From: Calditrichota bacterium | GTDB lineage: Bacteria > CLD3 | DNA length: 64,000 nucleotides | Direction of reading: 5' to 3' | Assembly: GCA_008501735.1 (NCBI GenBank) | Contig: QQUF01000022.1 | Coordinates: 35,034-99,033 of the forward strand | In this document: in pieces, positions 49,140 through 57,854 of the stretch | Numbering within the stretch: position 1 is the first letter of the stretch | Layout: the number at the start of each line of letters is the position of its first letter | The notes under the pieces: generated by a model | Seen by the model: the letters and a program-made list of their open reading frames with translations, nothing else | Databases searched by the model: none | Told to the model about the DNA's origin: nothing | Position numbers and translations under genes: made by a program

Positions 49140-50243
49140 TTATAGTTTCTTTTCCTGCTCACAAACTTCACCGAACCAAAGAATTATTTCTTTGAGTGCG
49201 AAAATTAGTGAATTGACTGTATTTGTGGTTGGTTGGTAAAAGAAACTTAGTAAAGGTGAATGCGAGCTAGAATCATCATGTGGACCGAACTCGCTTGCTA
49301 GTCCTTGTATTGTTTTGGCAAAAGTTGTTATAAGTTCACCTGATTTTATCTTTTTTTCTTGTGAAAGCCAACTAATGAAAGGTCTAACTTTTACATTAAT
49401 TTTATCTCTTTCATAAAGAAAAATTTTCTCCTTTTCTTTGGAACGATTATTTATCCTATTAAAAGAATTAGGAGCTTTTGTTATTTCAGCAATCTTACTA
49501 AGAATTTTTTGTGAAAGATTTCTAATCAGATCCAAGTTTTCTATTATTTCTACATTTTTATCTTTATTTCGTAAGGTTTTAAAAAATACTTCTTTTGCAT
49601 TTTTATTTAGAAAATTTTCTAAGGTTTCTAAATACTTTTTATTTTCCCATAAAACATCAAGTTCTTCTAAGTTATTGATTATTTCTTTTAGGTTTTCCTT
49701 TTCCTTTGTATCCGTTTTATCAATTATATTCCCTTTCTTAAAGTTGTCAAAACTACCCTCAATCAAAGGTTTAATCACTTCAAGATTTTTTATCTCATCT
49801 GAAGAATTTCCAGTTAAAAAATAGAATCTATCTTTAGCATTTATTTGCTTACTCAAAATGGCAATCTTTAATAAATAATCTCCCTCACGATTTTCATATC
49901 CGTTTTCGGAAATGTCTCTTTGGGCGATTCTGTCCAAATCTTCTAAATTGTATTTCCTCACCTTACCTGATAAATTTCTATCAATAATCAATAAAGAATA
50001 TTTTTGCCCTTTAATTTTAATTTTTCTAAGTGCTTCTGGGAAGTCATTCTCAAATTCTATGAATTGGGACTTATTTAAAATTTGTTTTATTTCTTCAGCA
50101 TTAACTGGACGATTTATTTCTTCTTTTTTAGATTTTAACTCTTTTAATTCTTTTGAAATTGTCTCTTCTAAACGTTCTTCAAATAAATTTTCTACTCTTT
50201 CAAGTACATCGGATACTTCATCTTCTACATAAAAAATTTTCAT
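49140..50243 (-). CDS. Divergent receiver-domain protein with uncharacterised helical C-terminus
   Basis: 367 residues. Residues 1-175 follow a receiver fold: acidic pair in FYVEDE (E7, D8), phosphoacceptor D88 in LLIIDRNLSG, T144 in YFLTGN and lysine 169/170 in FDNFKKGN. A charged helical insert of about 50 residues follows the first strand, and another loop (98-122) follows the phosphoacceptor. Residues 180-367 are helical and not recognised; near the end, ASEFGPHDDSS...PTTNTVNSLIFALKEIILWF faintly recalls HEPN-like abortive-infection C-terminal domains, which is speculation. It overlaps the kinase gene by ATGA, so it is its likely partner. It belongs to the minus-strand cassette that starts at 54316. 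Confidence 0.65.
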   Translation of the reverse strand: MKIFYVEDEVSDVLERVENLFEERLEETISKELKELKSKKEEINRPVNAEEIKQILNKSQFIEFENDFPEALRKIKIKGQKYSLLIIDRNLSGKVRKYNLEDLDRIAQRDISENGYENREGDYLLKIAILSKQINAKDRFYFLTGNSSDEIKNLEVIKPLIEGSFDNFKKGNIIDKTDTKEKENLKEIINNLEELDVLWENKKYLETLENFLNKNAKEVFFKTLRNKDKNVEIIENLDLIRNLSQKILSKIAEITKAPNSFNRINNRSKEKEKIFLYERDKINVKVRPFISWLSQEKKIKSGELITTFAKTIQGLASEFGPHDDSSSHSPLLSFFYQPTTNTVNSLIFALKEIILWFGEVCEQEKKL

Positions 50244-51886
50244 TTAACTTTCCATAAATTTTGAAAAACTATACCAACTGAATAAATTTGGTTTTCCTTT
50301 TTTATTTTAGGAGCTGTTTTAAGGAGGTTAGCAAAACTTCTAATAATTTCCAAACCTAAACCTGTTGACTTTGTTTTCTGATTCTCTTTAAAAGAGTTTT
50401 CTACCTCAAAAGTAATTTCATTAGAATTTTGTAAAACAGAAATTTTTATACTTCTGTTCTCTTTTGGAAGAAAAGATGAATATTTAACTGCGTTTAAAAG
50501 TAACTCTTGAAATAAAATTGTGAATTTGATTCTTGAACCTTTTGCATTCCCAATAACCATTTCTTTTGCTTCGTCTAAATTTAGGTTTAACCTAAAAAAG
50601 TATTTTTGAAGAAAACCTATTAACTTCTGTAAATCTTCGGTTTGTGAGATATTAACCCATAATTCTTTTGCCTCGATAAAAATTTCTTCTGTTGGAAAAT
50701 AATTTTCCACAAAATTAGAGAAGTATTTTCCGTCAAACATATTTCCGACCGAATATTTTAACGCATCTAAAATAACTTGCTCAAAATTCATACCTTCATC
50801 ATCAATATTTTTAGCATCATAAAGAAAATCTTCAAATGAATTATGGTGAGATAGATTCATTGCATTTACAACTTCTCTAATAAGATTTGTTCCCTTCAAT
50901 GCATTTTCTATCGCAAATGGATTATAAGTTTGCTTTCTCTTCATATTTTCTAATGGGTCAATAACAGAAGCAATTAAATTTTTGATTGAATGTGAAAGGT
51001 TAGACATTATTCTGTCTCGTTCTTGCTGAACCTTTATTTCTTGAATGTCGTCACCAATAGAATTACCCTCATATTCGTTATGACAAACATATTTAATTTT
51101 TTCTAAGTCTTTGATTGCCAAATCGTAATCATTTAAAGTAAGATATATTTTACTACGACTTTTAAGCATTTCTGCTAACTCAAAGTCCTCACTAAACCTA
51201 TTTCCCCCGTACAATTCAATAGATTTAGAAATATCTTTTAAAGCATTTTGATATTTGTTAAGACTTTTAAAACATAGACCTCTTTTGTAATATGATTCAT
51301 AATTTTCTGGTTCTAGTTCAATAGCTTGAGTAAAATCTTCGATGGCAAGTTCTATTTTATCTAACCAATAATAACATAAACCTCTTTTGTAAAACAGAAT
51401 TGCATTTTCTGGTTTAATGGCAATTGCTTTATCAAGATATTCACAGGCTTCCTTATATTTATTCATTTTTATTAAGCACTCACTAACAAGTTGCAGAGCT
51501 TGAATATCCTCGGGGACTAATTCAATCACTTTAGAAAAATCATTTGTAGCTTCACCATAATTTTCTTCTTTCATAAAACACTTTCCTCTAAAAGACAAAG
51601 CAATTTGATTTCCAGAATCTAATCCAATCGCTTTAGTGAAATGTTCCTTTGCTTTTTTGAGGTTGACAAGGTCGTATGATTTAATTTCTCCTGTTGAAGG
51701 TTCTACCATTCTGTTTTCAATTTCTTTTATTTCTCGTTCAATCTCCTCAGATTTGCTCTCGTCACTGTTCCATCGAATTTTTTTAAGTTCTTTGAGTTCG
51801 TTTTCCGAATGGTCAATTTTAGAATAGCTTTTAAGCCCAGATATGGTATGTTCTCTTGCCTTTTGGTTTATTTTCGAGTCAATCAT
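50240..51886 (-). CDS. Soluble TPR-repeat histidine kinase-like protein
   Basis: 548 residues with no membrane segment. Five or six TPRs cover about 75-265 (AILFYKRGLCYYWLDKIELA, ESYYKRGLCFKSLNKYQNAL). A phosphotransfer-like helix follows with MSNLSHSIKNLIASVIDPLE; His299 is the candidate phosphorylation site. The GHKL ATPase domain has N-box FQELLLNAVKYS (Asn465) and G-box STGLGLEIIRSFA; the D-box is weak. The TPR sensor suggests a protein or RNA-protein input from the cytoplasm. ATG 51886 has AGGT six bases before it and a sigma-54-like promoter candidate 35-50 bases upstream. The receiver gene downstream overlaps by ATGA. Confidence 0.8.
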   Translation of the reverse strand: MIDSKINQKAREHTISGLKSYSKIDHSENELKELKKIRWNSDESKSEEIEREIKEIENRMVEPSTGEIKSYDLVNLKKAKEHFTKAIGLDSGNQIALSFRGKCFMKEENYGEATNDFSKVIELVPEDIQALQLVSECLIKMNKYKEACEYLDKAIAIKPENAILFYKRGLCYYWLDKIELAIEDFTQAIELEPENYESYYKRGLCFKSLNKYQNALKDISKSIELYGGNRFSEDFELAEMLKSRSKIYLTLNDYDLAIKDLEKIKYVCHNEYEGNSIGDDIQEIKVQQERDRIMSNLSHSIKNLIASVIDPLENMKRKQTYNPFAIENALKGTNLIREVVNAMNLSHHNSFEDFLYDAKNIDDEGMNFEQVILDALKYSVGNMFDGKYFSNFVENYFPTEEIFIEAKELWVNISQTEDLQKLIGFLQKYFFRLNLNLDEAKEMVIGNAKGSRIKFTILFQELLLNAVKYSSFLPKENRSIKISVLQNSNEITFEVENSFKENQKTKSTGLGLEIIRSFANLLKTAPKIKKENQIYSVGIVFQNLWKVK

Positions 51887-51920
51887 CTTTTACCTAATTT
51901 TTTAAGTTTCCAAACAAACT

Positions 51921-51937
51921 TACACACTTTGTGCCAA
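51921..51937 (-). promoter_or_regulatory. Candidate sigma-54 promoter for the TPR kinase/receiver genes
   Basis: On the minus strand, TTGGCAC (-24, 51937-51931) is followed by AAAGT and GTGTA (-12, 51925-51921). The -24 half is a perfect match to TTGGCAC. The -12 half matches TTGCA at three of five bases, having GT where GC is expected. The spacing is exact. A start near 51909 would leave about 22 bases of leader with a ribosome site before ATG 51886. The gene next upstream encodes a sigma-54 activator. Confidence 0.45.
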
Positions 51938-52020
51938 AAACAAAAATCTCTTTCTAAAAGTCTAAAATGAAACTCTGCCAAATCGGAAGTAAAAATATTT
52001 ACGGATAAAAGTAAATATTT

Positions 52021-53574
52021 TTAGTCTCTCCATTTTCTAAGGTGTTCACTTCCTTCTTTGAAAATTTCATACTCTTCGTCTGTCATTGTCGGATATTTTA
52101 ACAACTTTTCAATCAAGGTATCATTTTCTTTCACTTTCTTCAATCTTGCTCGAAAAGTATGTGGTGCAAGTCCGAGAAGTTTTGCGGCTTGAGTTGCGTT
52201 TCCGTTGGCTTTTTTCAAAGCCGCTTCGTAGTATTTTTTCGGAATGTCAAAATCAAAGTTGATTCCTTCGTCAGGAATTAGAACTTCCGTTTGAGGTTTG
52301 CCAATTTCAATGATGTTCAGACTTTCGGCACCAATCTCATTTTCAGGAAAAACGAATGCGGATTCGACAGCATTTTTTAGTTGCCTGACATTTCCTCGCC
52401 ACTGATTTTGTAGGATTTTGGTTTTTGCAGAATTTGAGAAAATTTTTGATTTTTGGTATTTTTGATTAAGCTCGTCCAAAATCTTTTCGGCAATCAAAAT
52501 TTTGTCGTTTGTTCTTTCTCGGAGTGGTGGAATGAAAATTTTTCTCACAACAAGCCTGTAAAACAAATCCTCTCTGAAAGTCCCTTCTTTCACTAATTTT
52601 TCAATATTTTTGTTTGTCGCCGAAATGACTCTGACGTTTACTTTTTCCTCAAAACTTGAGCCAACAGGAAAAAATGTTCCGTCTTGCAAAACTCGTAAAA
52701 GTTTGACTTGAACCGACAAAGGCAAGTCGGCGATTTCGTCAAGAAAAATTGTGCCGTTGTCCGCAAGTTTGAACTTTCCGTCTTTGTCCGAAGTTGCACC
52801 TGTGAAAGAGCCTTTTTTGTGTCCGAAAAATTCACTTTCAAAAAGTTCAAGTGGAATCGCTCCACAATTTACTTTGACCAAGTTTCCGTCTTTTCGTGAG
52901 CTGTTTTTGTGAATTGCTTCTGCGACAAGTTCTTTACCTGTTCCGCTTTCGCCTTGAATAAAAATTGGAATTTCCGAATCGGCAAAAACTGAAATTTCTT
53001 TTTTCAAGTTTAGAATTTCCGCACTTTCGCCAATGATTTCTTCGTAGGCTAAATTTATATTTTTCTTAAGAAATTCATTTTCACGTTTGAACTTTGTGAG
53101 CTCAGTTTTTAGAGTAGAAACTTTTCTAATTTTCGGAAAATCGTCAAGCTCAAAAGTTACTTCCGAAATTCCCGATTCCCTTGAAACTTGAATTAATTTT
53201 GCATCTGTTACTTTGCCTTGTTTGAGAAAAAGCCAACAAGCGTGCATTGTTGGAGTTCCCGAAGTAACGGAAATTGTAAATTTTGCTTTTGGGTTTTCGG
53301 ATTGAATTTCAGAAAGTGCTTTGTGCATCGCAGGGTAAACGATGTTGTAATTTGTTGGGTCAGCCGAAAGACAATCTTTGTAAAAGACTTTTAGTTTTGG
53401 GTAGGTATTTCGGCAAAAAGCCAAAATTTCAGAGGCTGGTTTTAAATATTTTTCGTGGTTGTAGAGAAGGTAAAGTTTGTCGAATTTTTGATTTTCCAAA
53501 ACGGTGAGAATCGCACCCACTTTTTCATTCGGGAAACAATCGTTGTTACCAATAAAAGAAATTAAAATCTTCAT
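52021..53574 (-). CDS. RtcR-like sigma-54 activator with N-terminal CARF domain
   Basis: 517 residues. Residues 1-145 form a CARF-like Rossmann domain: KILISFIGNNDCFPN, VGAILTVLENQKFDKLYLLY, and the ligand-loop motif TISVTSGTPTMHACWLFLKQ (SGTPTMH at 105-111), as in RtcR. The AAA+ domain follows with Walker A GESGTGKE (208-215), sigma-54 contact loop GSFTGA (255-260, a variant of GAFTGA), Walker B GTIFLDE (274-280) and FREDLFYRL. The Fis-type helix-turn-helix is at about 455-485 (ANGNATQAAKLLGLAPHTFR). In RtcR the N-domain blocks the ATPase until an RNA-derived ligand binds. No rtcBA genes are nearby; instead a HEPN/MNT pair precedes it by 15 bases and a kinase/receiver pair follows. Confidence 0.88.
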   Translation of the reverse strand: MKILISFIGNNDCFPNEKVGAILTVLENQKFDKLYLLYNHEKYLKPASEILAFCRNTYPKLKVFYKDCLSADPTNYNIVYPAMHKALSEIQSENPKAKFTISVTSGTPTMHACWLFLKQGKVTDAKLIQVSRESGISEVTFELDDFPKIRKVSTLKTELTKFKRENEFLKKNINLAYEEIIGESAEILNLKKEISVFADSEIPIFIQGESGTGKELVAEAIHKNSSRKDGNLVKVNCGAIPLELFESEFFGHKKGSFTGATSDKDGKFKLADNGTIFLDEIADLPLSVQVKLLRVLQDGTFFPVGSSFEEKVNVRVISATNKNIEKLVKEGTFREDLFYRLVVRKIFIPPLRERTNDKILIAEKILDELNQKYQKSKIFSNSAKTKILQNQWRGNVRQLKNAVESAFVFPENEIGAESLNIIEIGKPQTEVLIPDEGINFDFDIPKKYYEAALKKANGNATQAAKLLGLAPHTFRARLKKVKENDTLIEKLLKYPTMTDEEYEIFKEGSEHLRKWRD

Positions 53575-53589
53575 TTATTTTTACCAATT

Positions 53590-53982
53590 TCATTTTAAAT
53601 CAGCTGAGTCTAAAATATCTCTAAAAATAGGAATCAACTTTTGCAAAGCCTTTACAGCTTGACGAGCTTCTTCACGAGTTGCCGATTCTCCTGGATAACG
53701 GAAAGCTACAGCGAAAGGATTTAGGTAAGCGAATAATTCTTTGTGAATTTCTAATTCAGGAACAACAGGTAAGCATAACTCCATCAAAGCCAATAAGTCG
53801 TGAACTTTCCCAAATCGAATATTTTCCTTTTGCAAAATTGCTTTTAAATATTTTTCTACAGATTGTTGAGCATGAAATCCAGCCGAGTCATAATTTGGAA
53901 ACTTCCTTGCTCTGAATTCTCTTAAAGCACTGTGGTAATCACCTTCGGCTTTCTCAATCCACTCTTTTATCAGTTCGTTCAT
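53590..53982 (-). CDS. HEPN-domain protein, probable toxin half of an MNT/HEPN pair
   Basis: 130 residues. The PF05168-type HEPN pattern is present: WIEKAEGDYHSALREF, DSAGFHAQQSVEKYLKAIL and FGKVHDLLALM. The RNase motif Rx4H is intact as R56-FGKV-H61, so catalytic activity is possible. The HxY tyrosine that is AMPylated in HepT proteins is absent (Leu at that place), so control by its partner must differ from the Shewanella HepT/MntA model. It overlaps the MNT gene by 29 bases and lies 15 bases before the CARF activator gene. Confidence 0.88.
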   Translation of the reverse strand: MNELIKEWIEKAEGDYHSALREFRARKFPNYDSAGFHAQQSVEKYLKAILQKENIRFGKVHDLLALMELCLPVVPELEIHKELFAYLNPFAVAFRYPGESATREEARQAVKALQKLIPIFRDILDSADLK

Positions 53983-54316
53983 AAAGTATTTTACCGAAAT
54001 CGAAAATTTCTTTTAGAAAAAAATCACCTTCTTTTAAACGTTTTTCAATTTGTTTTGGAGTTTTGACAAGAATGTCTAAAGGAAACGAATGTTCTAGAAA
54101 TAAAGCAATTTTAGAACTTAATTTTAAAGCAGATTCTTCTGTTTCAATAACAACTAATAAATCCACGTCGCTTTCTGCTGTTGGATTTCCGTTGGCGTAA
54201 GAACCAAACAAAATAATTTTTTCAGGCTCAAATCTTTCTGCGATTCGGATTGCCTGCATTTTTATTTCACTGAATTTCGCACAACGTTTGCCGATTATTG
54301 AAACTGTGTTTTTCAT
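53954..54316 (-). CDS. Minimal nucleotidyltransferase (MNT), probable antitoxin half
   Basis: 120 residues. The polymerase-beta-like site is complete: LFGSYANGNPTAESDVDLLV gives G38-S39 and the metal aspartates D50 and D52, and D81 in FPLDILVKT is the third. MNT proteins neutralise HEPN toxins, in studied cases by transferring AMP from ATP to the toxin. It is the first gene of the minus-strand cassette; a hairpin separates it from the di-iron protein gene upstream. Its length is normal for the family. Confidence 0.9.
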   Translation of the reverse strand: MKNTVSIIGKRCAKFSEIKMQAIRIAERFEPEKIILFGSYANGNPTAESDVDLLVVIETEESALKLSSKIALFLEHSFPLDILVKTPKQIEKRLKEGDFFLKEIFDFGKILYERTDKRVD

Positions 54317-54328
54317 AGCTTTAAAATT

Positions 54329-54356
54329 CTGAGAGTCTGTAAAATAAGACTCTCAG
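54329..54356 (-). terminator. Hairpin separating the di-iron protein gene from the MNT/HEPN cassette
   Basis: CTGAGAGTCT (54329-54338) pairs perfectly with AGACTCTCAG (54347-54356) around an 8-base loop. On the minus strand AATTTTAAAG follows. It lies 24 bases after the stop at 54380, with MNT starting 13 bases further on. Confidence 0.65.
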
Positions 54357-55279: not shown

Positions 55280-56626
55280 TTGCAGAATTTAGAATCAAAT
55301 CTTGATTTGAGCTTTTTACTTGAAACCGAATTTTCTAATCCTGACCAAGTTTTGATGGTAAAAAAAGGTGAAGTTTTACTAAAGGAAAACCAAGTCAACG
55401 ACAAACTTTATTTCATTTTGGAAGGCTCAATTACATCTTTTGTTTACGATTCGGAAGGCAAAAAATACAAGTCTTTTTCGGCTCAGAAAAATATGTTTGT
55501 TGGAGTTTACAGCTTCTTTTCAGGCTCAAGTAAAAGCCTCACAGAAGTCGTTACAAACGAAGATTCAAAATTCGCTTTCATCACTTACAGTCAGTTCCAA
55601 AATTCAATAAAAAGTAGTAAGTATCTTTTGGGGAAATTCATTTCAGTGATTCTCAAAGAACTGATTTTCAGACATCGCCAACTCCAAAAAATTATAATTG
55701 AAAAAGAGCAGACTTTCCAAAAATTACTCGAAACTGAAAAAATGGCTTCTTTGGGTCAAATGGCTGCAGGAATTGCTCACGAACTCAACAACTCAATTGC
55801 AGTTTTAAAAAACAACAACGAATGGCTTAGCAAAATTATCGGTGAAATTCTTAAAGAAAACAATTCCGAGAATCATCATTTTTTTACCGAAGGTTTTGAA
55901 AAAGGACGAACTTTGACGAGTAGCGAAGCAAAATCAAAAGCTAAAGATTTTGCAAAGAAATATTCGATTTCAAAAGACTTAGCACGCAAATTTGTTGAAG
56001 CAGGTTTGACAGAAAATGACTTTGCAAAGATCAGAAACAACATCGAAAAAGAAGTTCTTGCAAAGCACAAAAATTGGGAAATCGGAACAGCCTTTTATGA
56101 CATTTCTGTTGCTTCAAAACAAGCGGCTCACGTTGTTCAGTCAGTCAAAACTTTGGGTGCGAAAAGTTCTTTTCGGGAAGCAAACCAAGACGTAAATGAA
56201 AGTATTCACAATGCTTTGGCACTTTTGCAAAGTAGCCTTAGAGAAATCAATTTGAAGCTTGAGTTAAAACCTCTGAATTCGATAATTGCAAACAAAGGCG
56301 AGTTGGTTCAGATTTGGACAAATTTGGTCAAAAATGCTTGTGAAAGTCTTAGAAACTCTGGAATCCAAAATCCAGAAATTATAATTTTTTCAGAACAGCA
56401 AAAGACTTCTATATCGGTAAAAATTCAAGACAACGGAAATGGAATTCCGAAAGAAATGTTGAATCAAATTTTTAGACCAAATGTTACTACTAAAATTGGC
56501 GGACTTTCTTTTGGTTTAGGTTTGGGGCTGACAATCGTTGAAAGATTAGTAAATTCTTACAACGGTAGAATTTCTGTTCAGAGTGTTAGAGGTGAAACAA
56601 TTTTTGAAATTAAACTTCCAAATTAG
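55280..56626 (+). CDS. Histidine kinase with N-terminal cyclic-nucleotide-binding-like domain
   Basis: 448 residues from TTG 55280 with AGGA seven bases before. Residues 15-130 are a cNMP-binding-like beta roll (GEVLLKENQVNDKLYFILEG), but the phosphate cassette with Arg is not seen, so the ligand may not be a cyclic nucleotide. The HisKA box is MAAGIAHELNNSIAVLKNNN with His167. About 100 helical residues (190-285) separate this helix from the next dimerisation helix, an unusual insertion. ATPase marks are the N-box around WTNLVKNACESL, DNGNGIPKEM and SFGLGLGLTIVERL. It lies nine bases upstream of a receiver gene, its probable partner. Confidence 0.88.
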   Translation: MQNLESNLDLSFLLETEFSNPDQVLMVKKGEVLLKENQVNDKLYFILEGSITSFVYDSEGKKYKSFSAQKNMFVGVYSFFSGSSKSLTEVVTNEDSKFAFITYSQFQNSIKSSKYLLGKFISVILKELIFRHRQLQKIIIEKEQTFQKLLETEKMASLGQMAAGIAHELNNSIAVLKNNNEWLSKIIGEILKENNSENHHFFTEGFEKGRTLTSSEAKSKAKDFAKKYSISKDLARKFVEAGLTENDFAKIRNNIEKEVLAKHKNWEIGTAFYDISVASKQAAHVVQSVKTLGAKSSFREANQDVNESIHNALALLQSSLREINLKLELKPLNSIIANKGELVQIWTNLVKNACESLRNSGIQNPEIIIFSEQQKTSISVKIQDNGNGIPKEMLNQIFRPNVTTKIGGLSFGLGLGLTIVERLVNSYNGRISVQSVRGETIFEIKLPN

Positions 56627-56635
56627 AGTGAAAAA

Positions 56636-57118
56636 ATGGAAAAGTTAAACATCATTTGTGTTGATGACCAAAGCGAAGTTCTTGCGACTTTACGCAAAAA
56701 CCTTGAGTTTTTTAGTGAATTTTTTGAGATAACTGACTGTGAATCTGCGGAAGAGGCTTGGGAAGAAATTGAAGAAATCGATTCGGAAGGTGATTTTTTG
56801 GCTCTGATAGTTTGTGACCACGTAATGCCGAGCAAAAACGGAGTTGAATTTTTGACTGAATTTTATGAAGACTCAAGATTTCCTTTTACAAAAAAAATGC
56901 TACTAACAGGTTTGGCAACTCACGAAGACACAATTTCGGCAATTAACAATGCCAAAATTGATTGTTACATCGAGAAGCCTTGGGAAAGTGCCGAATTGAT
57001 AAAAACAATTCAGACTTTAGTAACAGAATTTATTTTGGAAAAAGGTTTGGAATACCAAGAAATGCTTCCGATTCTTGACCAACAAGTCGTTTACAGAAAA
57101 CTGAGTGGTAATTCTTAA
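56636..57118 (+). CDS. Single-domain response regulator
   Basis: 160 residues. The receiver fold has acidic pair D10/D11 (IICVDDQSEV), phosphoacceptor D61 in LIVCDHVMPSKNG, T91 in MLLTGLA and K114 in CYIEKPWESAE. About 40 residues follow, helical and with no recognised output domain (EFILEKGLEYQEMLPILDQQ). The C(Y)IEKPW end is typical of receivers that precede HD-GYP or kinase outputs, but none is attached. It is likely a phospho-signal to protein partners. The stop shares TTAA with the convergent cutC. Confidence 0.9.
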   Translation: MEKLNIICVDDQSEVLATLRKNLEFFSEFFEITDCESAEEAWEEIEEIDSEGDFLALIVCDHVMPSKNGVEFLTEFYEDSRFPFTKKMLLTGLATHEDTISAINNAKIDCYIEKPWESAELIKTIQTLVTEFILEKGLEYQEMLPILDQQVVYRKLSGNS

Positions 57119-57854
57119 GAGTTTTGTAAAATCTCAACCATCTTTTTTATTTTTTCAGAGTTCACAGAAATCATCTTGAATTCATCGTAATTTTTATTTC
57201 CACCCATTGTGAGATTTTCATTGATAAAATCCATCTTACTTGCTTCAAAAGATTTTGCCGAGCTATGAAATTCAGTAGCTTGAGTTCTCAAAATCAATTC
57301 TTCCAAATTCATTTCGTTCACACCACTTCCGGGCATAATTTTTATTTTCCCTTCTGTAATCTTCACCAATTTGGAAATTAATTCAATTCCTTCAAAAGCA
57401 GTATTCTTGCCTCCTGATGTCAGAACTCTTGTAACATTCAAATTTATCAATTCCTGTAAAGCCAACAACGGATTTTGCACATATCAAAAGCTCTGTGAAA
57501 AGTTACTTCCATTGGTTTTGCCAAGCCAACAACCTCTTCTGTTCTTCTAAAGTCAATTTCTCCGTTTGACTTTAGAAAGCCAGTTACAACACCGTTTGCA
57601 CCGAGTTTCTTGGCTTGAAGAATATCTCGTTTGATAATCTGATACTCAATTTCTGAGTAAAGAAAATCTCCGCCTCTTGGTCTGATTATCACATTTACAG
57701 GGATTTTTAGATTTTTTACAGTGAATTCGATTGTGGAGTAAGAAGGTGTTGTTCCTCCTTCCAAAAAATTGTCGCACAATTCTATTCGATTTGCACCACT
57801 TTTTTCGGCAATCAGTGCAGATTCAGCGGAATAACAACAAACTTCTAATTTCAT
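57115..57854 (-). pseudogene. cutC: cutC copper homeostasis family gene with a single-base frameshift
   Basis: The N-terminal part (57854 down to about 57478) reads MKLEVCCYSAESALIAEKSG, ANRIELCDNFLEGGTTPSY and ends at VTFHRAFDMCK. The rest of the TIM barrel (LLALQELINLNVTRVLTSGG, IKIMPGSGVNEMNLEEL, EFHSSAK) continues in another frame down to 57115. Adding one A to the four-A run at 57473-57476 (minus strand) restores FDMCKNPLLALQ, the normal family sequence. Combined, the product would be about 245 residues, the usual CutC length. All family motifs on both sides are intact, so the lesion is either very recent, a sequencing or assembly homopolymer error, or a slippery site. CutC is linked to copper tolerance, but its biochemical role is unclear. 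Confidence 0.88.

Follow-up and report, generated by a model that had tools for sequence, protein, structure and literature searches.

The 64,000-nucleotide stretch of Calditrichota bacterium DNA analysed here (contig QQUF01000022.1, positions 35,034 to 99,033; hereafter the window) carries five consecutive minus-strand genes encoding an MNT protein, a HEPN protein, an activator that joins a CARF domain to a sigma-54 AAA+ ATPase and a helix-turn-helix (HTH), a soluble TPR histidine kinase, and a receiver protein. By sequence comparison, three of the five, those for the activator, the kinase and the receiver protein, form a conserved core circuit in which a putative enhancer and a sigma-54 promoter-like site precede the kinase/receiver pair. 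The receiver protein appears from modelling to end in a HEPN fold, so that the output of the circuit would be a REC-HEPN protein, and we lean towards reading the unit as a self-contained, inducible and defensive two-component effector module resembling Detocs. A first-pass annotation, made from the DNA letters, had described five minus-strand open reading frames, and their coordinates, overlaps and gaps are all borne out: MNT and HEPN overlap by 29 bp, HEPN and the activator are 15 bp apart, and kinase and receiver overlap by 4 bp (ATGA). The 134-bp gap between activator and kinase, which contains the regulatory DNA, had not been remarked on.

To follow the unit into other genomes, CARF-domain homologues were gathered from plasmids, 290 genomes, genome contigs and viral contigs. 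The four closest (58-62% identity) are from Desulfobacterota, and three of the four have same-strand homologues of both the TPR kinase and the receiver a few kilobases downstream. With Desulfonema magnum and the genome G548, added by searching the relatives' genomes and their phylum, the trio recurs in five Desulfobacterota (the others being HSG2, HSG8 and S08.Bin136), with identities of 54-62% for the CARF orthologues, 45-52% for the kinase C-terminus and 33-38% for the receiver. CARF-sigma-54 genes thus do lie beside the TPR kinase elsewhere; that they never did so had been named in advance as grounds for giving up the proposed circuit. G548 has a compact CARF-kinase-receiver operon like that of the window, again with a 4-bp kinase/receiver overlap, and in D. 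magnum about 10-25 kb separate the CARF gene from the downstream cassette, whose receiver is frameshifted. In a maximum-likelihood tree of 79 activators, the six kinase-linked ones form one clade (support 100/100), with the window's nested inside it. All full-length receiver relatives found sit in genomes carrying the kinase-linked CARF gene, and the TPR kinase was not found in 385 other diverse genomes, class-mates of the window's host included. Used as a search seed, the receiver protein yielded no relatives in viral contigs, genome contigs or plasmids, and relatives of the trio were reached only through the CARF alignment; plasmid matches to the kinase were set aside as generic TPR proteins. 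That the three genes are chance neighbours with no shared function could draw on the trio being known from six genomes only, but conservation in those six already contradicts it, as do co-inheritance in one clade and a shared operator and promoter, and we consider it exceedingly improbable.

The sigma-54 promoter-like site in the activator-kinase gap scores 11.4 bits and is one of five that high among 128,000 positions (the whole window, both strands). The cassettes of S08 (twice), HSG8, D. magnum, HSG2 and G548 are preceded by comparable sites, and upstream of the relatives' promoters there is a dyad with the tandem consensus GTAAAAATATTTAC-N7/8-GTAAAAATTTTTAC. A matrix for this enhancer was trained on five operons of four relatives, with the window and G548 excluded. 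It scored 33.8 at the putative tandem dyad of the window, the top of the 64 kb; the next independent site reached 10.7 (23 bits lower) and the maximum over ten shuffles was 27.0. The same matrix selected the right gap in G548, outside the training set. A degenerate form of the dyad pattern is found just once in the 4.1 Mb of the host genome and, over the six genomes (about 35 Mb), at these cassettes only, with no hits for a backward-pattern control; since the sites themselves supplied the pattern, finding them again was guaranteed, and the informative part is that there are no others. An exact TTTAC-N-GTAAA search had looked weak because the boxes vary, whereas the aligned tandem form was clear. 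Conservation of the trio across six genomes, together with an enhancer and a sigma-54 promoter in the expected gap, supports the CARF-to-kinase half of the circuit first proposed for this DNA.

The activator combines CARF, sigma-54 AAA+ and Fis-type HTH domains in a single chain and matches PADLOC model PDLC01995, RtcR_PspF2 CARF_AAA_HTH, with an E-value of 4e-137 over residues 1-482 of 517. Four Pfam models exceed their cut-offs (PF00158, PF06956 RtcR, PF22208 Csm6-CARF and PF02954), and the CARF profile matches the Csm6 structure 6tug (E 9e-7), in agreement with the annotation, which had assigned a CARF domain and a sigma-54 ATPase to one protein. Because the family is already in PADLOC, the architecture itself is not new. 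Where an intact CARF gene is followed by a downstream gene (65 loci), the stretch between them was scored for sigma-54 sites: the best one passed 12 bits on the coding strand at 50 loci and on the opposite strand at none; the window has its site in the same place, between activator and operon. The host genome carries rpoN; neither RtcB nor a Cas10 palm was found in it, which argues against an RNA-repair or type III CRISPR context here. We therefore dropped both an identity as regulator of rtc RNA repair and a coupling to type III CRISPR in this host.

The kinase (PF00515 and PF14501, HATPase_c_5) keeps its phosphoacceptor His299 and its N-box and G-box residues invariant in eight homologues. 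The receiver protein has no Pfam match, and a PDB sequence search with its profile gave nothing useful. It is nevertheless homologous end to end (33-38%) to the receivers beside the CARF orthologues, and residues 1-195 align with the KdpE receiver (VIA-align Z 9.1, root-mean-square deviation 3.0, 114 aligned). Asp88 and Lys176 are invariant in eight homologues, and Glu7/Asp8 and Thr144 are kept in the window, so that kinase histidine and ATP-binding boxes face a receiver with its acidic pair, Asp, Thr and Lys. The protein had been annotated as a divergent receiver; a receiver it is, but its phosphorylation-site residues are intact and its C-terminal domain is HEPN-fold by model. As REC folds took up most of the structural matches to the full-length receiver, the C-terminal 180 residues were modelled and searched alone. 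All of the first 27 VIA-align matches were HEPN proteins or proteins that contain a HEPN domain (Z 10.7 to 8.1; the best with a root-mean-square deviation of 3.1 over 121 aligned residues), and the first unrelated protein followed at Z 7.8. HEPN toxins, AbiA, RnlA, LsoA and Csm6 are among the top matches. Foldseek E-values for the same model were not significant and helical bundles inflate Z, so the HEPN assignment rests on the consistency of the ranking. In genome G447, a different receiver protein (L162:8544-9437) with no CARF gene nearby has a C-terminus that matches the REC-HEPN profile (E 4e-9), a possible hint of a wider REC-HEPN family.

Whether this domain would act on RNA is a separate matter. 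The helical domain might instead only dimerise or bind partners, making the protein a signalling relay: the Arg of the canonical Rx4-6H motif is missing, and HEPN-like bundles can be non-catalytic (PMC3710099). We regard this as unlikely, in view of the 27 best structural matches being HEPN proteins, many of them toxins, the failure of Pfam and structural searches to find a DNA-binding domain in the protein, and the retention of the conserved His, as in the PaREP1/8 group, where a comparable His accompanies a degenerate motif (PMC3710099) and to which the second-best match, 2q00, belongs. Nonetheless, the missing Arg together with the moderate model confidence suggests that the receiver HEPN may bind rather than cut RNA.

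The two remaining genes of the window's five appear from these comparisons to be a local extra, outside the conserved core and not needed for the circuit. The MNT protein (120 residues, PF18765/PF01909) does have the intact GS...DxD signature attributed to it, as GSx10DxD (GSYANGNPTAESDVD), and scores 37.8 bits against the MntA model, below the 60-bit cut-off. The HEPN protein (130 residues, PF05168, E 2e-23) had been credited with an intact Rx4H motif (R56..H61), a claim that fails, because among 27 aligned homologues Arg56 is present only in the window's protein. His61 is conserved in 26 of the 27, and Arg95-Tyr96-Pro97 is conserved as well; this pattern is that of the AF0298-type HEPN-T proteins, for which an alternative active site has been proposed (PMC3710099), and RNase activity of the protein is possible. 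According to the annotation, the pair could be the signal source of the circuit, its cleaved RNA or nucleotide product being read by the CARF domain. The 15-bp gap and the 29-bp overlap do suggest one transcript, HEPN RNases leave the 2',3'-cyclic phosphate end (PMC3710099) that RtcR binds, and HEPN-to-RtcR feedback has been proposed for CoCoNuTs (PMC11090510). However, in none of the five relatives is the pair beside the activator, which leaves a role as signal source unsupported. Only one other adjacency was seen in over 80 CARF loci: at L089 the pair sits on the other side of a CARF gene that is broken. HEPN-T is a common module, with relatives in 24 of 98 genomes and no CARF-AAA gene within about 1.5 kb of any. 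Together with the non-conserved Arg, these findings make the full circuit quite improbable. Control of MNT/HEPN by the CARF activator was also dropped, no strong enhancer or sigma-54 site being found upstream of the pair, which is probably a toxin-antitoxin-like neighbour co-transcribed with the activator. In another genome (G032), the CARF activator is immediately preceded by a HigB/HigA-like toxin-antitoxin pair (L038:10267-10889), paralleling the arrangement in the window.

The wider activator family is found at the head of defence operons. The first downstream gene matches type I restriction enzymes at 32 of 67 loci, and other first genes are VWA/PP2C/kinase, Cas10 or AAA/Old-like. Three of the trio's relatives lie in islands with type I restriction-modification (R-M) genes, a VWA/PP2C/kinase operon or the PADLOC candidate PDC-M51A. 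At six loci (L022, L026, L086, L091, L095 and L114) family members head VWA/PP2C/protein kinase/AAA operons, on plasmids as well as chromosomes and mostly with sigma-54 sites. Two distant members (L041 and L043) head type III CRISPR operons, so some of the family sit where cyclic oligoadenylate is made. The same wiring could instead serve adaptation to stress or RNA damage, with translation arrest or dormancy rather than antiviral action as output. In its favour, the loci are mostly chromosomal with no phage or plasmid copies found, RtcR itself responds to tRNA damage (PMC7790460), and the compact G548 operon lies away from any evident defence island; set against the islands around three relatives and the defence operons headed by the wider family, we consider this a serious alternative, if the less likely one.

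Comparison thus gives the trio, its clade, the enhancer, the promoter and the His and Asp residues, and modelling gives the HEPN fold; the ligand, the phosphotransfer, the action on RNA and the role in defence are what we infer in the following scheme. In unstressed cells the CARF domain would keep the AAA+ ATPase inactive. A ligand arising from nucleic-acid stress would then bind CARF, most likely an RNA fragment with a 2',3'-cyclic phosphate end, as for RtcR, and less likely a cyclic oligonucleotide; damaged tRNA as the trigger of RtcR is the precedent for such a ligand (PMC7790460). The activator would assemble on the enhancer, which overlaps the 3' end of its own gene, and open the sigma-54 promoter, so that the TPR kinase and REC-HEPN are made. 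Through its TPR sensor the kinase would phosphorylate Asp88 of REC-HEPN and set the state of the HEPN domain, which would act on or bind RNA, slowing growth or blocking phage. We tentatively propose, as the bolder form of this scheme, two gates in series: the CARF domain would sense broken RNA and, acting through a dedicated enhancer, govern the synthesis of a HEPN effector gated by phosphorylation, together with that effector's own TPR-sensing kinase.

Several observations weigh against the defensive module that we favour. No trio member was found on phages or plasmids, unlike most defence systems, and in HSG2 and D. magnum the copies carry interruptions or frameshifts. The model of the receiver's C-terminal domain has a moderate predicted local distance difference test score (72), and of the Rx4-6H RNase motif the invariant His is left, the Arg being replaced by Ser. 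At the -12 element of the window's promoter GT stands in for GC; the matrix used for sigma-54 sites is an approximation, and the one for the operator is self-derived. If the two-gate scheme is true, one alarm would be needed for the effector to be made and a second for it to be armed, giving an inducible immunity or RNA-damage circuit. Earlier ties of CARF activators to restriction and CoCoNuT operons were based on gene order, whereas here it is the regulatory DNA itself: a clade-specific tandem enhancer and sigma-54 promoter, shared by the window and five other genomes, which make the statement that CARF activators control defence genes testable on a defined piece of DNA. With a REC-HEPN output, the HEPN fold would join the receiver-gated effectors, and the system would serve at the bench to ask which CARF ligand is made in infection or RNA damage.

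Features of the locus in the window (all domain and regulatory assignments are predictions)
Feature	Positions	Strand	Remarks
MNT gene	53954-54316	-	Open reading frame where one had been annotated
HEPN gene	53590-53982	-	Open reading frame where one had been annotated
CARF-AAA+-HTH activator	52021-53574	-	517 residues
Activator domains			CARF 1-150 (SGTP motif); AAA+ 180-410 with GSFTGA; Fis-type HTH 445-483
Putative tandem dyad upstream activating sequence	51989-52024	-	Coding strand CTAAAAATATTTAC-N8-GTAAATATTTTTAC; overlaps CARF stop codon
Sigma-54 promoter-like site	51921-51936	-	TGGCACAAAGTGTGTA; begins 50 bp before kinase start codon
Soluble TPR histidine kinase	50240-51886	-	548 residues
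Kinase features			TPR about residues 75-270; phosphoacceptor His299 in SHSIKN; AgrC/GHKL-like ATPase 440-545
REC-HEPN response regulator	49140-50243	-	367 residues
Receiver domain	49674-50243	-	Residues 1-190; E7/D8, D88, T144, K176
HEPN-fold C-terminal domain (model)	49143-49682	-	Residues 188-367; invariant His, no Rx4-6H Arg
Hairpin	54329-54356		Between PaaA-like upstream gene and MNT; 10-bp stem, z -3.3

The hairpin had been thought to isolate the upstream neighbour. The structure is real, but the terminator scan found its T-run on the plus strand only. Just past the PaaA-like gene, on the plus strand, lies a second two-component pair (55280-57118), a kinase with a cyclic-nucleotide-binding domain (55280-56626) followed by a receiver (56636-57118). 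Beyond it, an apparent frameshift at 57115-57854 splits one gene, which we take to be CutC-like, into overlapping minus-strand reading frames (57115-57480 and 57447-57854). The clusters of some relatives carry additions to the trio: a further pair of kinase and receiver genes, a radical SAM gene (PADLOC PDC-M51A) or an AAA/Old-like ATPase. In HSG8 an AAA_15/Old-like ATPase gene and one for a 185-residue protein of no known family (L149:16996-18717) directly follow the receiver; this pair, also in the D. magnum cluster, is a possible further effector. In HSG2 another copy of the receiver gene lies unlinked on contig C94 (L148), with no evident sigma-54 site, and there are two further tandem kinase C-termini without TPR repeats (L147:11286-12871), which suggest duplication and decay in the cluster. 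Between the R-M genes of D. magnum, a long run of the repeated peptide KKSVFSPVGTHENSPAIHCRGRM (L054:5117-6507) is probably a DNA tandem repeat.

RtcR-like CARF activators have been noted near restriction systems (PMC4012209) and at the head of CoCoNuT superoperons, with cyclic-phosphate RNA made by HEPN proposed as feedback (PMC11090510); that such activators drive defence operons, with HEPN-cleaved RNA as a possible signal, is therefore already published. In the literature on RtcR-like activators we found no CARF activator dedicated to a kinase/REC-HEPN pair, nor its enhancer, although the CARF superfamily classification (NAR 2020) may record part of this. TPR, HATPase and REC domains are listed among the predicted, unvalidated systems of a 2026 machine-learning survey (PMC13092281), which may concern this family. 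The window's activator shares with RtcR the CARF-AAA+-HTH architecture, sigma-54 dependence and a CARF domain without Lys/Arg after strand 4 (SGTP in the window), but scores 303 bits against the 650 needed for the RtcR equivalog and has the kinase/REC-HEPN operon as its apparent target in place of rtcBA. Like the RtcR_PspF2 members that head R-M and CoCoNuT operons, it belongs to the same family and lies directly upstream of a co-directional operon, with a sigma-54 site between; its clade differs in targeting a two-component pair rather than restriction, and in having its own tandem enhancer. The neighbouring pair resembles the type VII toxin-antitoxin MntA-HepT in placing a GSx10DxD MNT next to a HEPN gene; by contrast, the window's HEPN is a HEPN-T (PF05168) without RX4HXY, and the MntA model stays below its cut-off. 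The radical SAM gene of PDC-M51A opens the clusters of D. magnum and HSG8, in each case following the same enhancer and promoter; the window, S08 and G548 have no such gene in their cassettes. Detocs, finally, is a three-gene system comprising a soluble kinase and a receiver-fused effector, the PNP effector degrading ATP. By description only, the window's module shares the soluble kinase and the receiver-fused effector, and it differs in having two genes, with REC fused to HEPN rather than PNP, placed under a CARF sigma-54 activator.

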